A stretch of DNA of 64,000 nt, taken from Sulfobacillus sp. Lineage in GTDB: Bacteria; Bacillota; Sulfobacillia; Sulfobacillales; Sulfobacillaceae. The DNA lies in the NCBI GenBank assembly GCA_027309085.1, contig DAIDDL010000003.1:51643-115642 (forward strand), read 5' to 3'. The notes beneath the pieces were generated by a model, which saw only the letters and a program-made list of their open reading frames with translations, did not search any database and had not been told where the DNA came from. Numbering within the stretch: position 1 is the stretch's first letter; each line of letters opens with the position of its first letter. A program made the position numbers and the translations under genes. Of this stretch, positions 7,793 to 28,035 are shown piece by piece.

Positions 7793-9838
7793 ATGAAAAA
7801 GGAACCGTATGAACATGAGGATGCAGACACCTCTCCAGAGACAGTGGGCACTGAAGTTCTCGCGCATCTTATGGACCGAGCAACCCCGGATTTGTATCAA
7901 ATTCCTACCCACGCGCCCGGTCCGGCAGGGCATCTTCCGCTGACGCCCCAGATGTTGCGGGACTGGCCGAGTGGAAATCTGTTTGGGCTGTCACAAAGTG
8001 TCGGCATGGGCTGGGATCCGGCCCGAGCCCTCGCGCCTCCGGTGCTCATAATCTCGACACAAGGAGGTCTGCGGGATTCCGATGGCAGACCCATAGCACT
8101 CGGGTATCATACGGGACATTGGGAAGTAGGGCGCCTTGTCCAGATCGCTGCTGAAACTTTCCAGGCCTGTGGCGCTGCCCCTTACTCCGCTACGGTGAGC
8201 GATCCTTGCGACGGGCGGACTCAGGGAACTCCGGGCATGTTTGACTCATTAGCGTACCGCAATGATGCGGCGCTTGTCATGCGACGTTTAATACGGTCCT
8301 TACCCACCCGGCGAGCTGTGATGGGGATTGCGACGTGTGACAAGGGGCTGCCGGCCACGATGATGGCACTCGCATCGTTGCATGATTTGCCTGGTATCCT
8401 AGTTCCCGGAGGCACCACCTTGTTAGCGACGCACGGGGAAGATGCAGGTAAGGTACAGACTATCGGCGCGCGATATGCGCGGGGAGAATTGACGTTGGAG
8501 GAGGCCGCCGAGAGCGCGTGCCATGCATGTGCGTCGCCGGGTGGTGGATGCCAATTTCTGGGTACGGCGGCCACGGCGCAGGTTGTCGGGGAAGCACTCG
8601 GCATGGCCCTCCCCCACTCTGCGCTGGTCCCCTCAGGGCAGCCCATTTGGGAGGAACTAGCCCGACAATCGGCTCAAGCTCTATGGAATCTAATCGAACA
8701 CCAGACGACTATGGACGACATTCTGACTAATGCCGCCATTCAAAATGCCATGGTGGTCCATGCGGCGTTTGGCGGGTCGACGAATCTCCTGATGCATTTA
8801 CCAGCCATAGCGCATGCAGCGGGACTGCGCATACCTACCATAGAGGATTGGCGCACGGTTAACCGGGAAGTACCCCGTTTGGTAAGCGTTCTGCCCAATG
8901 GACCGGTTCACCATCCGACGGTTCGCGTGTTTTTGGCCGGAGGCGTGCCCGAGGTCATGCTTTACCTGCGTGATCTCGGCCTGTTGGATACGACCGTGCA
9001 AACGGTTTCAGGGTTGTCATTAGGTGGTGTATTAGATTGGTGGAAAAATTCATCCCGTCGCCAGAAAGTACGGCAGCACCTGGAAGATATCGATGGGGTG
9101 GATCCCCGTGATGTCATTAGAGATCCCGACAGGGCCCGCCAAAGCGGCATGACCCCCACCTTAACGTTTCCGTCGGGGAACCTTGCCCCCCATGGCGCCG
9201 TCATTAAATCAACTGCTATCGACCCCCAGGTGCTGGATGCGGATGGGGTTTATCATCACCGCGGGGTGGCCCGGGTATTTACAGATGAGCCGACCGCCAT
9301 CCACGCCATTAAAAAAGGCGTAGTGCAACCGGGTGATGTGCTGGTACTCATGGGGCGAGGGCCCTTGGGCACGGGCATGGAGGAAACCTACCAGTTAACC
9401 TCCGCTTTGCGCTATTGGTCTTTCGGCAATCAAGTCGCGTTGATTACGGATGCGCGTTTTTCAGGTGTATCCACGGGCGCCTGTATTGGACACATCAGTC
9501 CTGAAGCCCTGGCAGGAGGGCCGCTGGGCAAAGTGCGCGATGGAGATCTCATCGACATCACCATCGATCCGCGTCGACTTGAGGGCCACCTCCACTTCGT
9601 AGGGTCCACCGACCAGCCAATCACCCCCGAAGAAGGTGCCCTTGTTTTGGCCTCGCGTCCAGTTCATCCGCAACTGGCTCCTGACCCGGGATTGCCAGAC
9701 GATACACGGCTCTGGGCTGCTCTCCAAACGGTGAGTGGGGGACCATGGAACGGATCTGTCTATGATGTCCCCCGAATTCTTGAAGTGCTCGAAGCAGGCC
9801 AGCAGGTACTAAGGCGGGAAGGTATCGCACCAAAATGA
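7793..9838 (+). CDS. yjhG: Aldonate dehydratase, YjhG/YagF branch of the IlvD/Edd family
   Basis: Dehydrates an aldonate, D-xylonate in characterised members, to the 2-keto-3-deoxy acid using an Fe-S cluster and Mg. The 681-residue protein follows E. coli YjhG almost segment by segment: [104 protein letters not shown] and [16 protein letters not shown]. The three cysteines in SDPC, ATC and GGGC are the conserved cluster ligands of the family. It is somewhat longer than YjhG at the N-terminus. GGAGGTGACC precedes ATG 7793. The substrate could be another pentonate, since the family is related but not identical in specificity. Confidence 0.9.
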
Positions 9839-10118
9839 CCGGATTAAGTTGAAATGCGGATCGTGTTTATGGTTTTCAAATTTTATTCTGGTTCAGGTAA
9901 TTAATACGCGCGGCCAAAGCGCGAAGGCCGATGTGATTCGGTGATTTCAAAGGATAATGGCTAGGGAGGTGAGGCTAAAAGATGTGACCCTTTCATTTAG
10001 ACAGGGCAGAGTAGAGTTTTGTTGCAGAATGGTCCTGATGGTCAGTTGTGCGTAGCTGGCATTTTGCTTGAGAACAGATGTATAGGCGATATGGAAAATA
10101 ATGGAGGTGTTTTATTCA
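9839..10118. other. Intergenic region before the aldehyde dehydrogenase
   Basis: A 280-base gap between the dehydratase and the next operon. I find no convincing gene. It ends with the strong ribosome binding site GGAGGTG at 10103-10109. A promoter is likely but no well-spaced hexamer pair stands out. Confidence 0.3.
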
Positions 10119-11552
10119 ATGATCGATGCTAAAAATGTGATTGCGGGAGAAGAGAGGGACGCGCAAAATCGTGAGGACGTCTATAATCCGGCTCATCCTC
10201 AGACTGTAGTCGGCACAGTACCTCGCTCGAGTGCGAACGACATCGACCGAGCTGTTCATGCTGCTAACGAGGCGAGGACAGGTTGGCGGCGCTTAGGATC
10301 TATGGCACGCGGCAATATTTTGTTTCAGGCTGCTCAAGTTCTCGAGGCCCACGTGGAGGAACTCGGACAACTAGCGGCGGCGGAAATGGGGAAACCGATT
10401 GGGGAAGCGCGCGGAGAAGCCCAGCGAGCGGTCGCAATCCTGCGCTATTATGGCGGTGAAGGCTTTCGCACCATGGGTGATGTTATCCCTGCCAGTAATC
10501 CCCAGACCTTGCAATATACGGTGCGGGAACCCCTTGGCGTCGTCGGATTGATTACGCCGTGGAACTTCCCGTTAGCGATTCCCATGTGGAAGGCGGCGCC
10601 CGCCCTAGTGTGCGGCAACACCGTCGTGTTGAAGCCGGCGGAATTAAGCTCACTCACGGCTTATCGGATGCTCGCCTTAATTTCGTCGCTGTTTCCCCCA
10701 GGGGTATTCAACCTAGTCTTGGGGCATGGGACCGAAGCGGGAGAAGCAATGATTCGTCATCCAGATGTTAACGCGCTGAGCTTTACGGGATCGGCGGCCG
10801 TGGGTCAACATATTGCTCAAATTGCCACGGCGCGGGGAATCAAATATCAGCTGGAAATGGGAGGCAAAAATCCGGTGGTGGTGGCCGATGACGCGGATAT
10901 CGATTTAGCGGTGGACTTTACCGTATCGGGAGCGATGCGATCTGCGGGACAAAAATGCACGGCCACCTCACGCGTTATCGTCATGGACGCCGTGCGGGCG
11001 GCATTTTCCCATGCGTTGGTCGAGCGGGTGCGCACCTTGAAAATGGGCGATCCCTTAGACCCCCAGAACTACCTCGGTCCGGTCGTCTCCCAGGCTCAGC
11101 ACACCAAAGTGCTCGGACTAATAAATCAAGGGCAGGCGGAAGGAGGCCGCGTGCTTCTAGGCGGACTGGTCTCTGAAGAACAGTCCGGCTACTTCATTCC
11201 CCCCACGGTGTTCGACGAGGTGGTCCCGACGGCAACGATTGCGCAGGAAGAGATTTTTGGTCCCGTGGTCGCGCTGTTGCCGGTTTCCAATATTGACGAA
11301 GCGATTCGTGTCGCCAATGGGGTCCGGTATGGGCTCAGTGCGTCCGTGTTTACGCGCAGTCTGTCGACGGCCCTGACCTTTGTCGACGGGATTCAGGCGG
11401 GGATGGTGCGCGTGAATGAAGAGACCGCTGGCGTGGAACTTCAAGCCCCTTTTGGAGGCATGAAGGCCTCCAGCTCGCATTCACGTGAACAGGGCCATGC
11501 CGCCATAGAGTTCTATACGGAAACAAAAACAGTCGCCATTCGGGCGGTCTAG
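10119..11552 (+). CDS. NAD(P)-dependent aldehyde dehydrogenase, probably 2-oxoglutarate semialdehyde or related
   Basis: Oxidises an aldehyde to the acid. All ALDH hallmarks are present in 477 residues: GLITPWNFPLAIPMWKAAPA, NTVVLKPAELSSLTAYR, NALSFTGSAAVGQH, LEMGGKNPVVV with the catalytic Glu, GQKCTATSRVIV with the catalytic Cys, and EEIFGPVVALLPV. In a cluster with a pentonate dehydratase and a 2-keto-3-deoxy-acid dehydratase, the expected substrate is 2,5-dioxopentanoate, giving 2-oxoglutarate (Weimberg route); glyceraldehyde or glycolaldehyde are alternatives. Start ATG 10119 fits GGAGGTG nine bases upstream; an upstream in-frame ATG at 10101 overlaps that site and is rejected. Confidence 0.85.
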   Translation: MIDAKNVIAGEERDAQNREDVYNPAHPQTVVGTVPRSSANDIDRAVHAANEARTGWRRLGSMARGNILFQAAQVLEAHVEELGQLAAAEMGKPIGEARGEAQRAVAILRYYGGEGFRTMGDVIPASNPQTLQYTVREPLGVVGLITPWNFPLAIPMWKAAPALVCGNTVVLKPAELSSLTAYRMLALISSLFPPGVFNLVLGHGTEAGEAMIRHPDVNALSFTGSAAVGQHIAQIATARGIKYQLEMGGKNPVVVADDADIDLAVDFTVSGAMRSAGQKCTATSRVIVMDAVRAAFSHALVERVRTLKMGDPLDPQNYLGPVVSQAQHTKVLGLINQGQAEGGRVLLGGLVSEEQSGYFIPPTVFDEVVPTATIAQEEIFGPVVALLPVSNIDEAIRVANGVRYGLSASVFTRSLSTALTFVDGIQAGMVRVNEETAGVELQAPFGGMKASSSHSREQGHAAIEFYTETKTVAIRAV

Positions 11553-14410: not shown

Positions 14411-14639
14411 TGCCGCGCGTGCCCCACCGCTGGGTCGTGGCACATGGGATCGTGATGAGAGGGCGGGTACTACTCATAATTTAAGAGAAGAAAACGGGAA
14501 TCGGGCCTACCGAGCCCAGATGCTTTAAAAAGGAGGAAAATAAGCCTCAGATTATGGTCTTTCGTGGATGTAGATAGGGGACAGTGGCCACCCGTAGGGG
14601 CAAATCAGGGCATTATCCCTGAGAAGGAGGATGCAATCA
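14411..14639. other. Intergenic region, nothing recognised
   Basis: A 229-base gap containing a solitary AAAGGAGGAAAAT motif near 14530 without a convincing gene after it, and the strong ribosome site GAAGGAGG (14623-14630) for the next gene. Confidence 0.3.
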
Positions 14640-15575
14640 ATGGATACACCAGCCATGCGTGCTTTAGCAGTCTTAGGCTTGCCCGTGTCTGATGATCGGG
14701 ACCAGGAGAGCCCGTATCGGTTCGCCGATGGAGGGGCCTTTCGATTAGAAATTCCTAGCGTGGAAGGGCCCCGTGTGTTCGAAGCGGTCTTGAAAGAAGC
14801 GGAGACTTTGGATGTGCCTCTGCACCGGGTTAGCGAGGGCAGCGGGATCCAGCTGCTAACTGATCAGGACATCCGCGATATGGCGCAGATGGGCCATGAG
14901 CATCATATCGAGGTGAGTCTATTCTTAGGTCCCCGGGCGGGATTTGAACCGTCCGCGATGCAATTTAGTCCTAACGGCGGCGTGATCCGACCGCGGTTAC
15001 GGGGAATGGATGCGGTGAGAGCCGCCCTGGATGATGCGTTCCGAGCGTATGAACTAGGAATTCGTTCGGTTTTGGTGGCCGATGAAGGGATGATTTGGCT
15101 TCACCACACGCTCAAATCCCAAGGATTATGGCCCCCCGATCTGACAATCAAAGTGTCCGTGATGATGGGGGCGGCCAATCCGCTCGCGATTAAAAGGCTG
15201 GCGGATTTAGGCGTGGCCACCTATAATTGTCCGACGGATCTGACGATTGACCAATTGGCGACCATTCGGCGCGTGACCCCAGTGCCTCTCGATATCTATG
15301 TAGAGTCACCCGATGACGTCGGAGGATTTATTCGCTATAGAGAGATTGAGGAATTTATTCGGTATGTATCGCCGGTATATTTGAAGTTCGGGGTGAGGAA
15401 CGGCCCCAATATCTATCCCAGCGGATATCATTGGGAAAGTCAAGCAGTGCTTATGGGGCGGGAACGGGTTCACCGGGCGCGGGTAGCGTGGGAGGCCATA
15501 CAACGGCTAGGGCTGGCGGCGATGATGAGCCCTCTACGCACAGTTGCCAAGGATTTAGCCGTTCCCGTTCTTTAG
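14640..15575 (+). CDS. TIM-barrel protein resembling U32-type peptidases, function unknown
   Basis: A 311-residue soluble protein. Visible segments are FADGGAFRLEIPSVEGP, VSEGSGIQLLTDQDI, VSLFLGPRAGFE, YELGIRSVLVADEGMIW, KVSVMMGAANPLAIKRL, ATYNCPTDLTIDQLA, PLDIYVESPDDVGGFIR and YLKFGVRNGPNIYPSG. This repeats a strand-then-helix pattern of a TIM barrel and recalls a family often labelled U32 peptidase in automated annotations; I do not see a demonstrated catalytic motif. Neighbours are all sugar-acid enzymes, so a metabolic lyase, epimerase or aldolase role is more likely than proteolysis. ATG 14640 fits GAAGGAGG nine bases upstream better than ATG 14631. Confidence 0.6.
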   Translation: MDTPAMRALAVLGLPVSDDRDQESPYRFADGGAFRLEIPSVEGPRVFEAVLKEAETLDVPLHRVSEGSGIQLLTDQDIRDMAQMGHEHHIEVSLFLGPRAGFEPSAMQFSPNGGVIRPRLRGMDAVRAALDDAFRAYELGIRSVLVADEGMIWLHHTLKSQGLWPPDLTIKVSVMMGAANPLAIKRLADLGVATYNCPTDLTIDQLATIRRVTPVPLDIYVESPDDVGGFIRYREIEEFIRYVSPVYLKFGVRNGPNIYPSGYHWESQAVLMGRERVHRARVAWEAIQRLGLAAMMSPLRTVAKDLAVPVL

Positions 15576-16714: not shown

Positions 16715-16979
16715 AGCGACAGGACCGGTGTCCGATCGCGTCTACTCCAGAACGTCGTCTTCGCCCCGTGAGGACCATGAGAGTCCTTGCAGTGACGACC
16801 ACAGGAAAGGACATATGATCCCGAGAAGGCGGTCGTGTTTCTTCATATACCGACGAGGATTGCGGCCATCGATGGCAATGTGAGGATCCGTTGTGAAAAG
16901 ACGAGTCTCGGAGTCCATGCTACTTGAAGGATCCGTGCTATACGATAAAACGACTGACCATAATGAGGAGGGAAAATTC

Positions 16980-17753
16980 ATGAGGCTGCAAGGCAAAGTC
17001 TGCTTAATTACGGGTGCCGGTAAAGGCATCGGAGCGGCTACCGCAGAGGTCTTTGCGAAAGAGGGAGCCATTGTGGAAATGGGAGACATCGACGATGTGG
17101 CTGGTCAGGAGACCCTCACGCGCATTATACGGGCCGGTGGTCGCGCATTTTTGGAACACGTTGATGTCACACGGGAATTGAGCGTACAAACATGGAAAAA
17201 CGCGGTCAGACAACGTCATACCCGCGTGGACGTCTTGTTCAACAATGCGGGAATCAGCGCCGTGGGAGAACTGCATGAAGTGCCAAGAAAACTCTGGGAT
17301 GATGCGATGGCCGTCAATGTCACCGGCGTCTACCTGGTATCACAGGCGATCATTCCTCTGATGATAGAGCAAAAGGCGGGCGTGATCATCAATATGTCCT
17401 CGTGCATTGTTCACACGGGCTTGTTGCGACGTGCCGTGTATGCGGCGACGAAAGGGGCAATCATGGCCATGACAAAGTCCATGCAGGTAGATTATGCTCC
17501 CTATGGCATCCGCGTCAATGCTTTACTGCCTGGGACAATTTATACTCCATTTGTAGAAGACTACTTGAAAAACTCATACGATGATCCCAATGTCGCTATA
17601 GAACAACTCAAAAAGCGCCAACTGGGCAACGCACTGGGGACGTCGGAAGATGTCGCCTATGCGGCTTTGTATCTGGCATCAGATGAAGCCAAGTACGTTA
17701 TGGGCAGTGGCCTGATTGTCGACGGCGGGGTGACGGCAGGGAAACCCTATTAG
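16980..17753 (+). CDS. Short-chain dehydrogenase/reductase (SDR)
   Basis: Classical SDR of 257 residues. The cofactor loop ITGAGKGIGAATAEVFA is at the start, DIDDVAG follows the second strand and points to NAD(H), then DVLFNNAGISAVGEL, VIINMSSCIV with the catalytic Ser region, YAATKGAIMAMTKSM with Tyr and Lys, and the C-terminal SGLIVDGGVTAGKPY. Start ATG 16980 is chosen because GAGGAGG precedes it and the domain begins directly; an in-frame GTG at 16893 would add 29 unrelated residues. It sits 34 bases before the UxaA-like gene. SDRs in such loci oxidise sugars, lactones' parent aldoses or uronate-derived alcohols; the substrate is unknown. Confidence 0.85.
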   Translation: MRLQGKVCLITGAGKGIGAATAEVFAKEGAIVEMGDIDDVAGQETLTRIIRAGGRAFLEHVDVTRELSVQTWKNAVRQRHTRVDVLFNNAGISAVGELHEVPRKLWDDAMAVNVTGVYLVSQAIIPLMIEQKAGVIINMSSCIVHTGLLRRAVYAATKGAIMAMTKSMQVDYAPYGIRVNALLPGTIYTPFVEDYLKNSYDDPNVAIEQLKKRQLGNALGTSEDVAYAALYLASDEAKYVMGSGLIVDGGVTAGKPY

Positions 17754-17787: not shown

Positions 17788-18954
17788 ATGGATGAATTAA
17801 CATTTCAAGGCTATGTGCGGGCCGATGGCCGGGTGGGCACTCGCAATCATATATTGGTGTTACCTCTGGCGCCCGCCGTGAGTCCGACGGCATCATCCGT
17901 TCAGGCTCAGGTGGTCGGCACGGTGCATGTCGAACTCCATCAGGATGTCGGCCCTCAAATGGCGGGCTATGCCCTGGCGATTCGGACCTTATTAGGATGG
18001 ATCGATCATCCGAATGTCTTTGCGACAGTGATTCTCGCCCTCAGTGCGGACGACCCCGTGGTGACCGCATTGGTGGACGCGTTACCTGACCACGTCCGGT
18101 ACCACGTGGTGGCCTTTGACCGAGAAAACGGGCGAATCCGCGCGACCGAGCGCGCCTGTACGGTGGCGACGCATTATGTTGAGGACGCGGCACAAGAGAC
18201 CCGTCGAGTGACACCTCTCCAGCACTTGATTTTGGCCACGGAGTGTGGCGGGTCCGATGCCTGTTCGGGATTGTCCGCCAATCCCGCCTTGGGGTATGCC
18301 AGTGATTTGGTAGTGCAGGCCGGGGGGACCTCCATCTTGGCGGAAACCACGGAGCTGATCGGCGCCGAACGCATTCTGGCGGAGCGTGCGGTGGCGCCGG
18401 CGGTGGCCGAGGCGGTCTGGCGCACGGTGGCCCATGCAGAACAATCTGCCATGCGCATGGGCGTCGACTTTCGCGGCGGGCAACCGGCCCCGGGCAACAT
18501 AGAGGGCGGGATTACGACGATCGAGGAAAAATCGCTGGGATGTGTGCATAAAGGCGGTACCAGCCCCGTGGTGGACGTCGTTGACTATGCGGAACGACCG
18601 GCCCAGCATGGTTTGATCGTCATGGATACCCCCGGGCATGATGTCATGCAGTTTGTGGGGATGGCCGCCTCGGGTTCGCAACTCGCGGTTTTCACCACGG
18701 GGCGTGGCACCCCGACGGGAGCTGCGATTTTTCCCGTCATCAAGGTCTCGACGCGGTCGGCTCTCAAGCGTCAGCTACCAGATTTGATTGACTTTGATGC
18801 GGGGGGGATTGTCGATGGCTATCTCACGGTGGAACAAGTCGGTCGCGCCCTATTAAGGAAAATCATCTCCGTGGCCAATGGGGAACTGGTTGCAGCCGAG
18901 CGGTTAGGGCATCGAGAATTTGGCATCTTTCAGGGATGGGGGCGCGAGGCATGA
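17788..18954 (+). CDS. UxaA/GarD-type dehydratase subunit with intact C-terminal but degenerate N-terminal motifs
   Basis: Homologue of the large part of altronate/galactarate dehydratases, 388 residues, without a SAF domain. The entry GYVRADGRVGTRNHILVLP is conserved and the C-terminal half is complete: ATECGGSDACSGLSANPA (from residue 152), GNIEGGITTIEEKSLG, HKGGTSPVVDVVDYAE, MDTPGHD (about 279), TTGRGTPTG and VIKVSTRS. In contrast the three cysteines usual in the N-terminal half (VVCAN-like, GCGQIG-like and LGCE-like motifs) are all missing; the places read APAVS, VGPQ and LSADD. The paralogue at 20159 keeps exactly those cysteines and lacks these C-terminal motifs. The stop overlaps the next start (ATGA). 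I infer a heteromeric enzyme. Confidence 0.8.
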   Translation: MDELTFQGYVRADGRVGTRNHILVLPLAPAVSPTASSVQAQVVGTVHVELHQDVGPQMAGYALAIRTLLGWIDHPNVFATVILALSADDPVVTALVDALPDHVRYHVVAFDRENGRIRATERACTVATHYVEDAAQETRRVTPLQHLILATECGGSDACSGLSANPALGYASDLVVQAGGTSILAETTELIGAERILAERAVAPAVAEAVWRTVAHAEQSAMRMGVDFRGGQPAPGNIEGGITTIEEKSLGCVHKGGTSPVVDVVDYAERPAQHGLIVMDTPGHDVMQFVGMAASGSQLAVFTTGRGTPTGAAIFPVIKVSTRSALKRQLPDLIDFDAGGIVDGYLTVEQVGRALLRKIISVANGELVAAERLGHREFGIFQGWGREA

Positions 18955-20162
18955 GTGACGCAATTCGGTTGCTGCGGTGGAAGACAGACGAGGGCGGCAT
19001 GCGCTTGGGAGTGGGGGGGGACGAGCGAATTGTGCCGATAGATTCAGTCGTGCCTTCGCTCACATCGGTGCCGGACGTGCAAAGGTATTGCCGTACCCAG
19101 GGAGTCCCCGTGGCCGATTGGGCTCGGAACATCTTAGATCGCGCGACGGAGTCCATTGAGGTCCGGCCGGACCAGTACCGGATTCCGCTGGAACTGGGTG
19201 AGTTGTGGGCGTGTGGGGTGACTTATGAACTGAGCCGGGATGCGCGGGAAGCTGAAACCGCCAGTGCGCAGACCATTTATGCCAAGGTCTATCACGCCGA
19301 GCGGCCAGAACTGTTCTTTAAAGCCCCCGGGTCCCGCGTCGTGGGGCCGGAGGACTTTGTGGGATTACGCCGCGATGCAACATGGCACGTGCCAGAACCC
19401 GAGATGACTGTCATATTGGATGAGTGCGGGGACATCTTTGGCTTTACCGCCGGTAACGACATGACCGCGCGAGACTTAGAAGTGGAAAACCCGTTGTATC
19501 TTCCGCAAACCAAGACCTATCATCATAGTGGGTCAATTGGTCCGAGCATCGTGCTCGCGGGTACGGTGGACCCCCATGCCCTGACGATTGCGCTCGACGT
19601 GCGGCGCCGGGACCAATGCGTGTTTCACGGCACGACCTCGACCGATCGCATGCGACGACGGATCGAGGAACTGGTGAGGTATTTAAAGGTGGCGTGGCCG
19701 GTAGCGCCGTGGACGGGTCTGATGACGGGTACCGGGATCGTACCCCCGGAAGAGTTTGCGTTAGAAGACGGAGACGATATTGCCATTACCGTGTCGGAAA
19801 TCGGGACGTTGCGGAATACCGCCCGCACAATTGACGCGTCGTGGGCCCACGTGCCTGAGGGGCCACCGCGCGTGTTACGCATTGATGCGCGGGATAATGT
19901 GGCGGTGGCTTTAGGCGCCCTGGAATCGGGCCGCGGGATCGTGGTCGGAACCCTGACTATTACGGTCCGCGATCCCATCCCGTTTGGCCATAAGGTGGCC
20001 CTCGCGAACATTTCGGTCGGCGACCCGATTATCAAGTATGGGGAGTGCATCGGGGTAGCCACTCAGCCCATAACGATTGGACAGCATGTGCATACGCAAA
20101 ATGTTGAAAGTCAGCGGGGACGTGGAGACTGGGCGGATGCGAAAAGAGGGCAAAATCAATGA
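18951..20162 (+). CDS. Fusion of FAH-type 2-keto-3-deoxy-acid dehydratase with a C-terminal SAF domain
   Basis: Residues 1 to about 300 resemble the 2-keto-3-deoxy-D-arabinonate dehydratase branch of the fumarylacetoacetate hydrolase family: LWACGVTYELSRDAREAE (from residue 86), VYHAERPELFFKAPG, TWHVPEPEMTVILDE with two acidic metal ligands, GNDMTARDLEVENPLYLPQ, TGTGIVPPEEF. This enzyme turns the 2-keto-3-deoxy-pentonate into 2,5-dioxopentanoate. From about residue 306 to 390 a second domain follows, VLRIDARDNVAVALGAL, then FGHKVALANISVGDPIIKYGE and IGVATQPITIGQHVHT, which is the SAF domain normally found at the N-terminus of altronate/galactarate dehydratases. Both ends overlap neighbours by ATGA. 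A run of eight G lies at 19013-19020. The domain order is unusual. Confidence 0.85.
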   Translation: MSDAIRLLRWKTDEGGMRLGVGGDERIVPIDSVVPSLTSVPDVQRYCRTQGVPVADWARNILDRATESIEVRPDQYRIPLELGELWACGVTYELSRDAREAETASAQTIYAKVYHAERPELFFKAPGSRVVGPEDFVGLRRDATWHVPEPEMTVILDECGDIFGFTAGNDMTARDLEVENPLYLPQTKTYHHSGSIGPSIVLAGTVDPHALTIALDVRRRDQCVFHGTTSTDRMRRRIEELVRYLKVAWPVAPWTGLMTGTGIVPPEEFALEDGDDIAITVSEIGTLRNTARTIDASWAHVPEGPPRVLRIDARDNVAVALGALESGRGIVVGTLTITVRDPIPFGHKVALANISVGDPIIKYGECIGVATQPITIGQHVHTQNVESQRGRGDWADAKRGQNQ

Positions 20163-21049
20163 CGACCACTTTTGTGGGATATCGTCGAGCCAACGGGGAT
20201 GTGGGGGTACGGAATTATTTATTGGCTCTACCTTCGGTCGTGTGTGCGACGCGGGCCACCGCGCGGGCTGTCCAAGACCTCCCCAATGCCCTGACGGTTG
20301 AACATCCGGTCGGCTGTGCCCAAATTGGGGCGGACCGCGATCAAACCTTGCGCGTATTGGTCGGCATCGGCGCCCATCCGAATGTGCGGGGGACGGTGGT
20401 GGTCGGGCTAGGGTGCGAAGGAGTGCCAGCCGCCGAGGTGTCTGAACAGATTCGCCAGAGGGATCGGTCCAGTGAAGTATTGACCATTCAAGGGGCGGGT
20501 GGCACCATCGAGGCCGGGATGCAAGCGCGAGCCATGTTAACCGCCATGGCGAGTGATACGCCTCGTCACACGGCATCTCTCGCGGACTTGGTGTTGGGTG
20601 TCGGAGAAATTGGGGGTCTCGGGGATTGGGGGCGCCGCATTGTTTCAGCGTTTTTGGAGCGCGGGGGTCAGCTCATCGAAAGGGTGGGCGATGGGCCCCA
20701 TCTTGCCTACGGGGAACGCATGCCGCGCGAGATGACCCGCGCAGTGATGGCGGGTGGTGCGGGCACCAACGAAGTCATCACGGGTCTTGTTGCGTCGGGG
20801 GCTCAGATCGTTCTCGCGCAAAGTGACGCGGAGAATGTTGGGGGACATCCGATCGCTCCGGTAATTCGCATTGGCTATGACGAGCGCCTGCGCCATGCCT
20901 TGTGCGACGACATGGATGGGATGGTATCGGATCGGACGCCCGAGGAATGGGCGGATTGGATCGTGGATGTCGCCAATGGGGTACCCACAATGGCGGAACA
21001 ACTGGGGGCTGCGACGTTTGCGATTCAGCGGATCGGACCGACGCTGTAG
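20159..21049 (+). CDS. UxaA/GarD-type dehydratase subunit with intact N-terminal cysteines but degenerate C-terminal part
   Basis: Second UxaA-like protein, shortened to 296 residues. After GYRRANGDVGVRNYLLALP it keeps the family cysteines: SVVCATRA (C29), HPVGCAQIGADRDQT (C53) and VVGLGCEGVP (C86), plus GAGGTIEAG. The C-terminal half is eroded: the ECGGSDA...ANPA motif is replaced by GVGEIGGLGDW, the GGxTTIEEKSLG and MDTPG motifs are gone, yet GAGTNEVITGLVASGAQIVL and GHPIAPVIRIG still align to the family. Thus it complements the 388-residue paralogue two genes upstream. The start ATG 20159 overlaps the stop of the FAH-SAF gene. Probable partner subunit in one dehydratase complex (inference). 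Confidence 0.78.
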   Translation: MTTTFVGYRRANGDVGVRNYLLALPSVVCATRATARAVQDLPNALTVEHPVGCAQIGADRDQTLRVLVGIGAHPNVRGTVVVGLGCEGVPAAEVSEQIRQRDRSSEVLTIQGAGGTIEAGMQARAMLTAMASDTPRHTASLADLVLGVGEIGGLGDWGRRIVSAFLERGGQLIERVGDGPHLAYGERMPREMTRAVMAGGAGTNEVITGLVASGAQIVLAQSDAENVGGHPIAPVIRIGYDERLRHALCDDMDGMVSDRTPEEWADWIVDVANGVPTMAEQLGAATFAIQRIGPTL

Positions 21050-21208: not shown

Positions 21209-21720
21209 TTACCCGGTCGTCGGTACGGGATCGGCGGATGCGACGGTCACGCGATAGCCTAGACGCTCCAGGCGACGGACCGTCCGCTGCACGATTTGGG
21301 TCCGATCGCGTGCGTCATGGTACGTCGGCCCGAGTTCTTGGTAGGGTTAGCCTGTCGTGATGACAGGATGATCAGGATCCGATGCGCCAGGGCGATGATC
21401 GCTTTATTTTTCGGCAGGCGTTTGATCCACCGCCGATATAGCGCCCCCAGAAACGTGGTTTGGGTGTGGCTGGCCGACCATGCGGCCAGCGTCAAGGCGG
21501 ATCGCAAAGCCCGGTTCCCCTTGCGGGTGACGCTTTTCCGCCGCTTTCGTTCTGCCCGGCCGCCAATCCGGCCCACGCGGCCAAATGATCGGCGTCGGGA
21601 AAGCGCGACAGGTCGGTCCCGATTTCGGCCAGCACCGCCTCCGCCGTGCGGCGGTCGATGCCCGGGATCGTGTCCAGGAGGTCAATCGTCGGCTGCTGAG
21701 GGTCTACGCCGGGAACTCGT
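21209..21720 (-). pseudogene. IS110-family transposase, C-terminal fragment with a frameshift
   Basis: On the minus strand the conserved IS110 C-terminal (transposase_20) domain can be read: TIDLLDTIPGIDRRTAEAVL, AEIGTDLSRFPDADHLAAWA, GLAAGQNESGGK. After a frame change near 21540 it continues RKGNRALRSALTLAAWSASH, TTFLGALYRRWIKRLPKNKA, IIALAHRILIILSS. The last part, RTQIVQRTVRRLERLGYRVT, ends at a stop at 21209-21211. The N-terminal DEDD domain is missing. Its arrival point lies 160 bases after the UxaA-type operon, at its boundary with the minus-strand block. Confidence 0.85.
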
Positions 21721-21854
21721 GTGGGGATGTTCGTTGTCCGCGCATTGTGAACGAGTCGTTGAGGATAATGGCAAACCGGGAATACGGGGGAAGGGAATCA
21801 GGATTTCCTTTCGCCCTCGTGTTCTACTAGCGACGTCTCCGAGTTCCTTTGTAC

Positions 21855-22892
21855 TTACGGTCGACAGCGCCGCTGGGCTTGGACTCGGGCGTCATCTGAC
21901 GCAGCCCGAAGAGCATAGACCATACTCGTTTCGTGGGCGACGCCCTTGCCGGCGATCTCAAAGGCAGTCCCATGGTCGACAGAAGTTCGGATGATAGGAA
22001 GTCCAATAGTCTGATTCACGCCGGTATCGATTCCGAGCATTTTAATGGCAATGTGGCCTTGATCATGATACAGGGCGACAACCATGTCGAATTCTCCAGT
22101 TTGGGCACGAGCAAAAATAGTATCTGCTGGCCACGGGCCGCTTACTTCTAAGTTTTGCTGTCGTAGCTGGTCGAGTGCGGGGCGGAGAATGGCGTCTTCC
22201 TCGTCGCCAAAGAGGCCATCATCGCCAGCATGAGGATTCAGCGCTGATACGGCAATGCGCGGCTTTTCGATACCGATCGATTGAAGATATTGGTGTGCGA
22301 GTTGGGACACAATCACGACACGCTCCGGTGTCAATCGATTAACGATGTCGCGAAAGGCGATATGGGTGGTGCAATGTGTTACGCGAAGCCGTTGGTTTTT
22401 GAGCATCATCGCATAATTGTTGGCACCCGACAGTTTGGCCAAGGCTTCCGTGTGTCCGGGAAACGGCACTTGGGCCAATTCCCAAGATTTTTTGTGGATA
22501 GGGGCGGTGCAAATGGCATCTACCACGCCTGATTGTGCCAGTTGGACTGCTGTTGCAACATAAGCAAAGCTTGCCTCTCCAGCCTCTTGTGAAACAATTC
22601 CCCATGGCAGATCGTCCGGCACGTTTTGGAGGTTAACCACGCCGATGACGAACGGGTGGTTGGATAAATATGCCATATCAGAACGTGCGGAGACCGGTGA
22701 AAATTCTGGAAGGCGGGGCAGCCGCCCCCCATGGTAAAGAATTGCGGCGGCTGATTCTAGTCTGGCCTGATCGCCGATAATGACACTGGGAATATGGTCG
22801 TTCTGCACCAGAAATGAAGCGCTCAAGATAGACACTTCCGGGCCAATGCCTGCGGGGTCCCCCATAGTGATGGCTAGTACGGTGCGGTCCAT
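21855..22892 (-). CDS. PdxA2-like 4-phospho-acid-sugar dehydrogenase (4-hydroxythreonine-4-phosphate dehydrogenase family)
   Basis: NAD-dependent oxidative decarboxylase of about 345 residues. Motifs of the PdxA family are all visible: AITMGDPAGIGPEVS at the N-terminus, DAICTAPIHKKSW, FPGHTEALAKLSG, HCTTHIAFRDI, VSALNPHAGDDGLFGDEE and ALYHDQGHIAIKMLG with metal-ligand histidines and aspartate. It lies 18 bases behind a DUF1537 kinase. That pair is known for D-threonate and D-erythronate catabolism, where the phosphorylated acid is oxidised and decarboxylated to dihydroxyacetone phosphate, so a catabolic rather than vitamin B6 role is likely. ATG 22892 is preferred over TTG 22907, since GGAGG sits at correct spacing. 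Confidence 0.88.
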   Translation of the reverse strand: MDRTVLAITMGDPAGIGPEVSILSASFLVQNDHIPSVIIGDQARLESAAAILYHGGRLPRLPEFSPVSARSDMAYLSNHPFVIGVVNLQNVPDDLPWGIVSQEAGEASFAYVATAVQLAQSGVVDAICTAPIHKKSWELAQVPFPGHTEALAKLSGANNYAMMLKNQRLRVTHCTTHIAFRDIVNRLTPERVVIVSQLAHQYLQSIGIEKPRIAVSALNPHAGDDGLFGDEEDAILRPALDQLRQQNLEVSGPWPADTIFARAQTGEFDMVVALYHDQGHIAIKMLGIDTGVNQTIGLPIIRTSVDHGTAFEIAGKGVAHETSMVYALRAASDDARVQAQRRCRP

Positions 22893-25234: not shown

Positions 25235-25898
25235 CGAACTTTTTTGGGCCCACTTGGACATCCGGAAGAGCTTTGGGATGCTCTTCGAGAGGTCGGCACG
25301 GTGTTGATTCGCTTATGGCCGATTTCTAGCGTGGCCACTCGGTCGGCGGACCGGCTCAAGATTTGCCAAGCGCGGCGAAGGCATGGACAATATCATCTCG
25401 ATGCTTGCCGCGAGAAGGGGGTAGCGGTCGCAATTACCGAAACCGCAATCGGGAATCTTCAGCGAATATGTTCTCGGGGCCTTTATGGCGGGATGGGGAA
25501 AATAACTCCGCGCCGGCGATTACGAAGGCGCACGCGCTACTATGGCGTGGAATGGGGAGGAAGGACCATCGCGATGGTCGGCTACGACCGCATTGACCGG
25601 GCCCTCCCCGCGTCTGGTCCATGGATTACAGAGTCAGGTGGTGGTGTAAGGCGACCTGTTGCGGCCCGGTGGTCCGAAATGTCGGGCTCACTCGGATAAG
25701 GCGGGATCATTTCTCATCAATGCTGCAGGTGGTCCCATTGCGGATTCCATGGGGCGGGGGTTGATGTCTTCGATCCAGAACCGCCCCCTTCCGATAACCC
25801 GTTATGGACGGCCCCACTTGTTGGTGACCCCGAACATTACCGCCTCAATGCATGAGGCGGTCAGCCATAATGGAACACATGAGTGCCTCAGAGGCTAG
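25235..25898 (+). pseudogene. D-isomer-specific 2-hydroxyacid dehydrogenase, decayed
   Basis: Segments in changing plus-strand frames reproduce the family: LGHPEELWDALREVGTVLIR, ADRLKICQARRRHGQYHLDA, CREKGVAVAITETAIG, then VEWGGRTIAMVGYDRIDRAL (GxGxxG-type loop with changes), FLINAAGGPIADSMG (usual FINxxRG, with the catalytic Arg lost), and HLLVTPNITASMHEAV at the C-terminus. Multiple frameshifts separate these parts. The gene ends against the minus-strand LarA-like gene, with tails touching at 25895-25898. Confidence 0.7.
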
Positions 25899-27176
25899 CT
25901 AAGGTCGACACTGCCTACGCGATGGAGGGTGCCTGTGTCATCAAAGTTGAGAACGGTCCAGTCGCCCAGCGGGGTGAGTCCCGCGTCGACGGCGTCGTTC
26001 CACAGAGCCTCACTAATCACCATCTGCTCTAGATGCAGCGTATCACGGATGATGAGCACTCGGGCCTTGGCAGGATCGCGACCATTGACGGTGCGTAGCG
26101 CGACCTCAATGGCGTCGTGGTCATTGGCCATCACCATGGGAGTTTTAATGGGATTGAATTCGGTCGAGGTTAACGCGTTGGTGTACGTCTTCGGCCAGTC
26201 AATCGCCTCATACGCGCGGCGCGACACACTGTCTGCAAGGCCAATACCATTGGCATTGCCTTGGGTTTCCGGCGTGAGGCTCAGCACGACGATTTTTGCA
26301 ATATGAGGGCCGGGATAGGGGGCATCCGGCGGACCATATCGACCGGTGACGTTGGGATCCATTCCATCCCCAGAAATGTTCTTGCCCAATTTAGCGACGG
26401 CTAGCACATCCAGATCATCGAAGGGCAGACGGGCCATCCAGTCGCGTGCCTTTTCCAGCAGTTTTGGCTCTTCCTCGAGAATTTCGTTAGCGGGCACGGC
26501 ACGGATGAGGGCGGTCTCTTCATGTCCATTCTCAACTAAAGCCAAGCCGAACGCCACTGGGAGTGTTTTGATGATCAAGGACGCGACGTCGGGAATGACT
26601 GTCAAAGACAGGAAATCCACGCGTGTGGACGGCAGCCGCCCCTCGTTGCTTGCCGAACCCAATCGCCAGCATTTTCGCCAGTCCGCTTTCAATGGGGCCA
26701 TGAAAGGCGGTGTGGGGCTTTACACGGTTGATGGGAATGATGCCATCGGCTTCCAAAGCGGCACGGCTAAAGTGGATGGGGGTCCCATCATCTTGTTCGC
26801 CAATTACTTCGGTGTCCATGCGGGCGTCGATGCGGACCCTCATTGATTTCTCAGTAATTCCATAACTGGCGAGCACTTCCTTTTGTCCCTCGGGTGTCGA
26901 GCCGCCATGCGATCCCATGGTCGGCACAATAATGACGTCCGCTCCTAAAGCCCTGATTTCATCGATGGTGACCTTGGCAATGATGGCGAGATTTGCGATG
27001 CCGCGGCTGCCGATGCCAATTGCATATGTCTTGTTGGGAGAAATCTGTAACGACACATGGGCTATCTCGCGTTTTACTGCGGCCACGATGTCGGTCTCTA
27101 GGGGACCTTTGAGGGTCTGGTAGATAGGCCGGAAGCGTGGCCAGTCTACCGATGGAAATGAGGATAAGTCTAACAT
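25895..27176 (-). pseudogene. Lactate-racemase-domain (LarA-like, DUF2088) protein split by one frameshift
   Basis: Full-length homologue of LarA-type nickel-pincer racemase domain proteins if one frame change near 26600 is allowed. The first part, starting MLDLSSFPSVDWPRF at ATG 27176 after AAAGGAG, contains YAIGIGSRGIANLA, VPTMGSHGGSTPEGQ, IPINRVKPHTAFHGPIESG and KMLAIGFGKQRGA. The second part continues VIPDVASLIIKTLPVAFGLA, EILEEEPKLLEKA, LGKNISGDGMDPNVTGRYG, and ends GTLHRVGSVDLS. The rest of the sequence is well preserved, so the lesion is recent, or a base-call error. Role in relatives: racemisation or epimerisation of hydroxy acids; the DeoR gene upstream likely shares its transcript. 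Confidence 0.72.
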
Positions 27177-27234
27177 GACGACTCCTTTCATGAAAACCAG
27201 CGGTTGCCATCCCCGGCCCCTCAGTGCACAGTCC

Positions 27235-28035
27235 TCACAAAAGGTTGCTGGATGTCTGACTCGACTGATTAAGTGGCGGGTTATAGGGTACCAGTATAAG
27301 TTCCACCCCAAACTTCCGAATTTTTTTTTGTACTTCAGTGGGCATGCGATCATCACTGACCAAAATATCGATGCTCTCCAATGGGGCTACTGTGATGAGG
27401 GCGGATTCTTGAAATTTGGTGAAATCAGTGACCAAAATGACCTTCCTAACGCGAGAAATCATAGTGCGCTTGGCGGCGACCGAATCCACAGAAAAGTTGC
27501 TTAAGCCGTGGTCCACATTGACGACCGCTGTTGACAAGATGACAACGTCTGCATTGATCTGGTCGAGAAAGGCGGTCGTAAAGTGCCCCAATAAAGACGC
27601 TGTATCGGGCTGGTACTCACCGGCCGTTACGAGCACTTGTACCATGGCCTTCTCGCCTAAAGCTGCTGCTGTAGGGAGAGAATTGGTAATAGCAGTGAGT
27701 GGGAGGTCATTGGGAATGTGACGCGCAACTTCGAGAACGGTGGTGCCCGCGTCAAGTATCACAACCTGTTTAGGTTCCAGCAAACTCGCGACCTGAGATC
27801 CTAGTAGTCTTTTAACCTCGGGTTCTTCCTTGAGACGTTCAGCCCACTTGCGACCATATTGCAGGTTGGGCCGGATTATCGCCCCTCCCGTGGTTCGGAT
27901 GATAAGATTACGTTCTTCAAGGGACTGTAGGTCTCGATAAATGGTCATTGGAGAGACGTTAAAACGGTCGGCCAACGTACGCACCGACAATTGAGTCTCG
28001 CGAAGCAGCATGTGGATAATTTCATCTTGACGCAT
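27235..28035 (-). CDS. DeoR-family transcriptional regulator
   Basis: 266-residue repressor. The N-terminal helix-turn-helix reads MLLRETQLSVRTLADRFNVS, PMTIYRDLQSLEERN, LIIRTTGGAII, the standard DeoR signature. The C-terminal sensor domain (ISOCOT/DeoRC fold) shows VVILDAGTTVLEVARHIP, LTAITNSLPTAAAL, ADVVILSTAVVNVDHGLSNF, and SRVRKVILVTDFTKFQ. Such proteins sense phosphorylated sugars or sugar acids. It precedes the LarA-like gene on the same strand by 58 bases, and may also control the DUF1537-PdxA2 pair. Start ATG 28035 follows AGGAGATTTCC. Confidence 0.9.
   Translation of the reverse strand: MRQDEIIHMLLRETQLSVRTLADRFNVSPMTIYRDLQSLEERNLIIRTTGGAIIRPNLQYGRKWAERLKEEPEVKRLLGSQVASLLEPKQVVILDAGTTVLEVARHIPNDLPLTAITNSLPTAAALGEKAMVQVLVTAGEYQPDTASLLGHFTTAFLDQINADVVILSTAVVNVDHGLSNFSVDSVAAKRTMISRVRKVILVTDFTKFQESALITVAPLESIDILVSDDRMPTEVQKKIRKFGVELILVPYNPPLNQSSQTSSNLL

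Follow-up and report, generated by a model that had tools for sequence, protein, structure and literature searches.

Reciprocal loss of conserved residues in two UxaA/GarD paralogues of Sulfobacillus suggests a sugar-acid dehydratase with a composite active site

Results

Three overlapping genes encode two UxaA/GarD paralogues and an FAH-SAF fusion

We analysed a window of 64,000 nucleotides from Sulfobacillus sp. (assembly GCA_027309085.1, contig DAIDDL010000003.1, positions 51,643 to 115,642), in which three adjoining genes, here called A, F and B, encode two paralogues of the UxaA/GarD dehydratase family and, between them, a protein with an FAH domain and a SAF domain. An earlier note on this sequence had proposed that A and B hold complementary parts of one active site and are linked by ATGA overlaps through the middle gene; both its coordinates and these joins were correct. 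The features of the locus, in window coordinates, are as follows.

17788..18954, plus strand: gene A, 388 aa, UxaA/GarD paralogue retaining the C-terminal catalytic domain (open reading frame and Pfam)
18244..18246, plus strand: codon of A Cys153 (in ECGGSD), the family's fourth conserved cysteine
18951..18954, plus strand: ATGA overlap of the A stop and F start codons (sequence)
18951..20162, plus strand: gene F, 403 aa, KdaD-like FAH domain with a C-terminal SAF domain (Pfam and PDB matches)
19893..20108, plus strand: SAF domain of F, residues 315–386 (Pfam)
20159..20162, plus strand: ATGA overlap of the F stop and B start codons (sequence)
20159..21049, plus strand: gene B, 296 aa, UxaA/GarD paralogue retaining domain 2 (open reading frame and Pfam)
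20243..20245, plus strand: codon of B Cys29
20315..20317, plus strand: codon of B Cys53
20414..20416, plus strand: codon of B Cys86

The start of F is likely at 18951, in the overlap with the A stop codon, rather than at 18936, where a longer reading frame would begin.

Protein A contains the Pfam domains GD_AH_second (60.6 bits, cut-off 27.3) and GD_AH_C (313.9 bits, cut-off 26.8). It matches the GarD structure (PDB 6u7l) with a phmmer E-value of 3e-54, and its structural model, which is of lower confidence, superimposes on GarD with a Z-score of 30.1 over 313 residues. The motifs ECGGSDA, AETTELIGAE, TTIEEKSLG, MDTPG and TTGRGTP are all retained. The positions of the three N-terminal cysteines (C29, C53 and C86 of B) are occupied by alanine, valine and alanine in A. 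Also missing from A are the domain-2 residues G53, D60 and E88, which most lone family members retain, including those that lack the cysteines, and the C-terminal R-x-G-P-T tail; a G-P-T tail is present in B and in many canonical proteins.

Protein B shows the opposite composition, with a stronger GD_AH_second match (107.7 bits) and a truncated GD_AH_C domain (36.7 bits; same cut-offs). It retains C29, C53, D59, C86 and E87 and the C-terminal tail RIGPTL, and it lacks ECGGSDA, TTIEEKSLG, MDTPG and GRGTP, mostly through deletion of the catalytic segments of the C domain. The alignments thus bear out what the earlier note had read in both proteins, namely that the 388-residue chain keeps the C-terminal motifs without the three cysteines and the 296-residue chain the three cysteines without those motifs. 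The AlphaFold 2 (AF2) model of B has a mean predicted local distance difference test score (pLDDT) of 94.5 and superimposes on GarD 6u7l with a Z-score of 25.0 over 261 residues; B is accordingly predicted to fold well, into a GarD-like structure from which the catalytic insertions are missing. Both A and B therefore fall within the UxaA/GarD superfamily by Pfam and by their modelled GarD fold. None of the three proteins reached the cut-off of the GarD equivalog model TIGR03248 (730.85 bits), A scoring 228.6, B 36.5 and F 41.4 bits.

Protein F combines an FAA_hydrolase domain (PF01557, 62.3 bits) with SAF. Residues 67–289 match the 2-keto-3-deoxy-D-arabinonate dehydratase KdaD of Sulfolobus (PDB 2q18) with an E-value of 1.6e-53 and contain the EPE and ENPLYLPQ stretches; a further match is to PDB 3k3s (E 6e-14). 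Its domain content and the close match to the solved KdaD structure place F in the FAH family. SAF is a small lid domain that canonical UxaA/GarD enzymes carry at the N-terminus or as a separate small subunit. Other FAH homologues in the Sulfobacillia genomes examined lack SAF, and FAH-SAF fusions were seen only where A or B is present. The core of the enzyme appears to be a three-part A-SAF-B arrangement, with the SAF domain fused to FAH as the third piece. The RGRGD tail of SAF was considered as a marker of this split system and discarded, since ordinary SAF subunits carry it too.

Conserved positions are divided reciprocally between A and B

We compared 19 A and 19 B homologues from Sulfobacillia with a reference of 35 three-cysteine UxaA/GarD family members (a first estimate had used 40 canonical rows). 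Nine conserved positions of domain 2 are kept only in B (C29, G52, C53, D59, G83, G85, C86, E87 and Q111) and none only in A, whereas 40 conserved positions of the C domain are kept only in A and none only in B (Fisher p = 5e-10, for columns that are not fully independent). The three cysteines are present in 19 of 19 B proteins and in no A protein; the C-domain residues are present in 18–19 of the 19 A proteins and in about none of the B proteins. Because it is kept across all these homologues, with no position reversed, the reciprocal pattern claimed for the window is not due to chance. Neither chain has all four conserved cysteines of the family, A having only the fourth and B only the first three, and the pair has the complete set. 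SuyB-type members likewise lack the full set of four in one chain.

A, F and B are linked in the Sulfobacillia genomes that carry them

A or B was found in 18 of the 34 genomes of the window's family. A homologues are 60–82% identical, with a sharp gap to ordinary UxaA proteins at below 40%. A B-specific profile identified only 16 loci among 84,980 species genomes, in a pattern-based scan that detects close relatives only. Fifteen are loci of genomes already in the family set, including that of the isolate Sulfobacillus harzensis DSM 109850. The sixteenth (L095, 1260–6339) is in a metagenome-assembled genome labelled Actinomycetes, with a guanine-plus-cytosine content of 75%, where A-F-B stands directly behind an IlvD/EDD-like frame. 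We considered this locus as evidence for a second phylum and rejected it: the genome groups in the same class as the window's family, and its public label therefore looks wrong. No B-type relative was found in the phage collection.

The earlier note had named co-occurrence and fixed gene order as points to survey, and had counted homologues of either protein that occur alone with full activity against its proposal; neither A nor B was found as a lone gene within a contig. The order A-F-B was found in all Sulfobacillia sets except that of genome G423, and A and B stand together in every case bar two unpaired copies, both at contig ends, which are weighed in the Discussion. In G423 (L075, 3457–3682; L107), A and B are adjacent with nothing between them and the FAH-SAF gene lies on a different contig; all three parts persist even where the operon is broken. 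In genome G428 (L076, 2161–3334), the A gene is in two frames, through a frameshift or a sequencing error.

The window genome carries A, F and B a second time, on a separate contig (C77; L036, 4287–12099), where A is 73%, F 59% and B 56% identical to its counterpart. The aldehyde dehydrogenase and the short-chain dehydrogenase/reductase (SDR) beside that set are 94% and 89% identical to those of the window. Some genes of these two sugar-acid loci have been duplicated or exchanged recently; A, F and B are far more diverged.

The same division recurs in a more distant genome and in haloarchaea

L125, a genome more distantly related within the class, has the order A'-SAF-B'; its SAF is encoded separately, by a gene of 100 aa, and A' and B' show the reciprocal losses seen in the window. 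One set of 16 haloarchaeal records gave the top matches in the plasmid collection for A as well as for B, and we examined 14 of them. All 14 sets consist of three genes, A-SAF-B, annotated as "UxaA family hydrolase", so that SAF is an independent gene here as in L125. Four-nucleotide overlaps were found at most of the joins examined in L125 and the haloarchaeal sets, and FAH genes stand near several of the latter, unfused.

In all 14 haloarchaeal sets, A lacks the three cysteines and retains the C-domain residues, and B has the cysteines and has lost most of the C-domain residues. The split is 6:0 for B-only positions in domain 2 and 0:29 for A-only positions in the C domain (Fisher p = 6e-7). 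C30, C54, D60, G84, C87 and Q111 (A numbering) are lost from A in both groups.

Other arrangements were also identified. Two haloarchaeal loci used as controls (L146, 2492–3658; L147, 2492–3655) contain lone, SuyB-like large chains adjoining sulfur exporters, with tyrosine, arginine and glycine at the three cysteine positions. A betaproteobacterial plasmid locus (L148) consists of SAF and one large chain.

Phylogeny of A and B

The A and B clades each received full support, and A' of L125 groups with A at 100/99. The distance matrices of A and B are correlated (r = 0.87, permutation p = 1e-4), in part through shared species history, and B diverges faster than A (mean distance 0.49 against 0.33). 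A sister relationship of A and B was absent from the best tree and was not rejected by the approximately unbiased (AU) test (p = 0.30); B may therefore stem from another UxaA lineage.

In the full tree, B and haloarchaeal B form one side of a branch at 100/99. This branch was not recovered from domain 2 alone, where a single clade was not rejected (AU p = 0.30). A single clade of A and haloarchaeal A gave p = 0.13 on all columns and 0.04 on the C domain alone, and haloarchaeal A and B as sisters were not rejected (p = 0.17). Long branches weaken all of these tests of one origin or two for the Sulfobacillia and haloarchaeal splits.

The locus lies in a sugar-acid catabolic neighbourhood

Three genes upstream of A are relevant to its probable pathway.

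7793..9838, plus strand: YjhG/YagF-type D-xylonate dehydratase (IlvD/EDD), 1086 bits, cut-off 808
10101..11552, plus strand: aldehyde dehydrogenase, nearest to alpha-ketoglutaric semialdehyde dehydrogenase, 656.6 bits, below the cut-off of 770
16893..17753, plus strand: SDR dehydrogenase gene directly preceding A; the second A-F-B set has a close relative beside it

Further genes upstream on the same strand encode a sugar ABC transporter, an IclR regulator, a KDPG-type aldolase, a PfkB kinase, a galactonate-dehydratase-like enolase and a 3-hydroxyisobutyrate-dehydrogenase-like protein. This array is a sugar-acid catabolic neighbourhood, to which the D-xylonate dehydratase gives a pentonate-pathway context. 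It also includes a 314-aa protein (14631–15575) that no NCBIfam model matches and that resembles Peptidase_U32 only weakly. Transposase-like remnants (21259–21994) lie directly 3' of B. Further downstream, on the minus strand, two overlapping frames (25895–27356) jointly resemble one LarA-type protein; the homologue at L037 (3569–4858) is an intact frame of 429 aa, and the window copy therefore seems to be frameshifted.

Discussion

A composite iron site is the most probable explanation

Based on the recurrence of the reciprocal split in about 20 bacterial and 14 archaeal gene sets, A and B very probably act jointly. We hypothesise that A, B and the SAF domain of F form one sugar-acid dehydratase, obligately heteromeric and with one composite iron site, and give this reading a probability of roughly three in four. 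The D-arabinonate dehydratase of this superfamily is reported to have rubredoxin-like iron, and cysteine-to-serine mutants of it have been constructed (PMC6336799). According to the same source, four cysteines are conserved in the superfamily, absent only from SuyAB, and are the proposed iron ligands. In our reading of the alignment, the ECGGSD cysteine of A would be the fourth of that set. B would then supply the domain-2 half of the site, with its three cysteines, D59, E87, Q111 and the R-x-G-P-T tail, and A would supply the C-terminal domain, with the fourth cysteine and the E/N/K/TTGRGTP substrate and acid/base residues, so that three of the cysteines holding the iron would come from B and the fourth from A.

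The SAF domain of F would serve as the lid of the A-B enzyme. Its product may be a 2-keto-3-deoxy-sugar acid, probably derived from a pentonate, which the fused KdaD-like FAH domain would dehydrate to alpha-ketoglutaric semialdehyde. KdaD is the next enzyme after the dehydratase in the D-arabinonate route, and it is from this chemistry and the gene context that we infer the action of FAH on the A-B product. The physical complex, the sharing of the metal, the residue roles, the substrate and the hand-over of product are likewise our inference. Domain 2 is reportedly the dimer interface of GarD; if so, an A-B dimer would be natural, with domain 2 of B completing the site of A.

Several observations weigh against this reading. 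A lacks its B in genome G401, and B its A in G158, and the partners were not found elsewhere in these assemblies. Haloarchaeal A retains E88, and haloarchaeal B retains more of the C domain than its Sulfobacillia counterpart. In a Bacillota sample, 7 of 40 family members are lone proteins that lack the three cysteines, and two further lone, cysteine-less, SuyB-like genes beside sulfur exporters can be added. Because such homologues exist, the loss of the cysteines from A proves nothing by itself, and A might not need the iron of B. When A is modelled by itself, AF2 does poorly exactly in the conserved catalytic stretches, which may fit a missing partner and equally a shallow alignment.

The main rival explanation follows from these lone proteins. 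A and SAF may be a complete lyase that does not depend on cysteine-held iron, with B in a non-catalytic role (structural, regulatory or in iron delivery). Cysteine-less UxaA-family proteins do stand alone beside SAF genes, some of them SuyB-like and near sulfate/sulfite exporters, and SuyAB itself is described as lacking the conserved cysteines (PMC6336799). However, A has also lost the domain-2 glycine, aspartate and glutamate that most of these proteins keep, B holds the exact cysteine/D/E/Q set in 19 of 19 and 14 of 14 cases despite its faster divergence, and the same split is found again in haloarchaea. We therefore regard a cysteine-independent A with an accessory B as unlikely.

That A and B are separate enzymes of one pathway, each with a reduced site and its own substrate, is improbable. 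They do share one operon-like array, and divergence in substrate is common among paralogues of catabolic operons, but B lacks nearly all conserved catalytic positions of the C domain and A lacks the cysteine site, which leaves neither with a complete site; the strict reciprocity and the single SAF for both also argue against it. That B is a functionless, decaying remnant of a duplicated UxaA gene, as its shortening and faster evolution might suggest, is refuted in practice by its conservation, nearly all copies being open, with cysteines and a G-P-T-L tail invariant over deep divergence, overlapping start and stop codons, a confident predicted fold and an occurrence in two domains of life.

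Origin of the split

The earlier note had envisaged a heteromer that arose by complementary degeneration after duplication. The heteromer is supported, at the level of sequence comparison, by the reciprocal loss kept in 19 Sulfobacillia sets, in L125 and in 14 haloarchaeal operons; the duplication was neither recovered in the best tree nor rejected. A tentative scenario, which we consider possible and rather doubtful, is that the split arose twice, in Sulfobacillia and in haloarchaea, with near-identical residues lost, and that Sulfobacillia then fused the next enzyme of the pathway onto the lid and could pass the product on directly.

If the composite site is correct, this widespread family of iron enzymes includes, in bacteria and archaea alike, a heteromer whose single metal site is assembled from two degenerate paralogues. 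This would be a clean natural case of a homomeric enzyme becoming an obligate heteromer, and it would correct the annotation of A or B alone as altronate dehydratase. It also predicts that in UxaA/GarD enzymes domain 2 of one chain completes the C-domain site of the other.

Comparison with known systems

The earlier note knew of no two-paralogue UxaA enzyme, and our literature search, which left most subscription journals outside its scope, also found none described. A possible precedent, the L-fuconate dehydratase of P. mimosarum, is termed heteromeric in PMC6336799, whose text does not state whether SAF plus a large chain or two large chains are meant.

The closest comparison is with the UxaA/GarD dehydratases themselves (COG2721, acting on D-altronate, D-galactarate, D-arabinonate and D-idonate). 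A, B and F together sum to all their domains, the fold, the four cysteines and the C-domain motifs, but the known members have one large chain with an intact domain 2 and C domain, which here are divided over two paralogues. SuyAB and the two-gene UxaA enzymes (SAF plus large chain) are likewise heteromeric, with SAF on its own chain, and SuyB also lacks the three cysteines. However, they have one large subunit and no second, reciprocally degenerate paralogue. The window locus differs from SuyAB in its two large paralogues, its sugar-acid neighbourhood and the lack of an adjoining sulfur exporter. What sets F apart from Sulfolobus KdaD, of the FAH superfamily, is its C-terminal SAF domain, which is part of the enzyme one step earlier in the pathway.

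Outside this family, the mitochondrial processing peptidase and the archaeal tRNA-splicing endonuclease have duplicated subunits among which the parts of one functional unit are divided; they are unrelated enzymes, in which no metal site is split three cysteines to one. Judged from the aligned proteins, the two reciprocal large chains would represent a new form of UxaA/GarD dehydratase, beside the known forms that have a single large chain with SAF either fused or separate.

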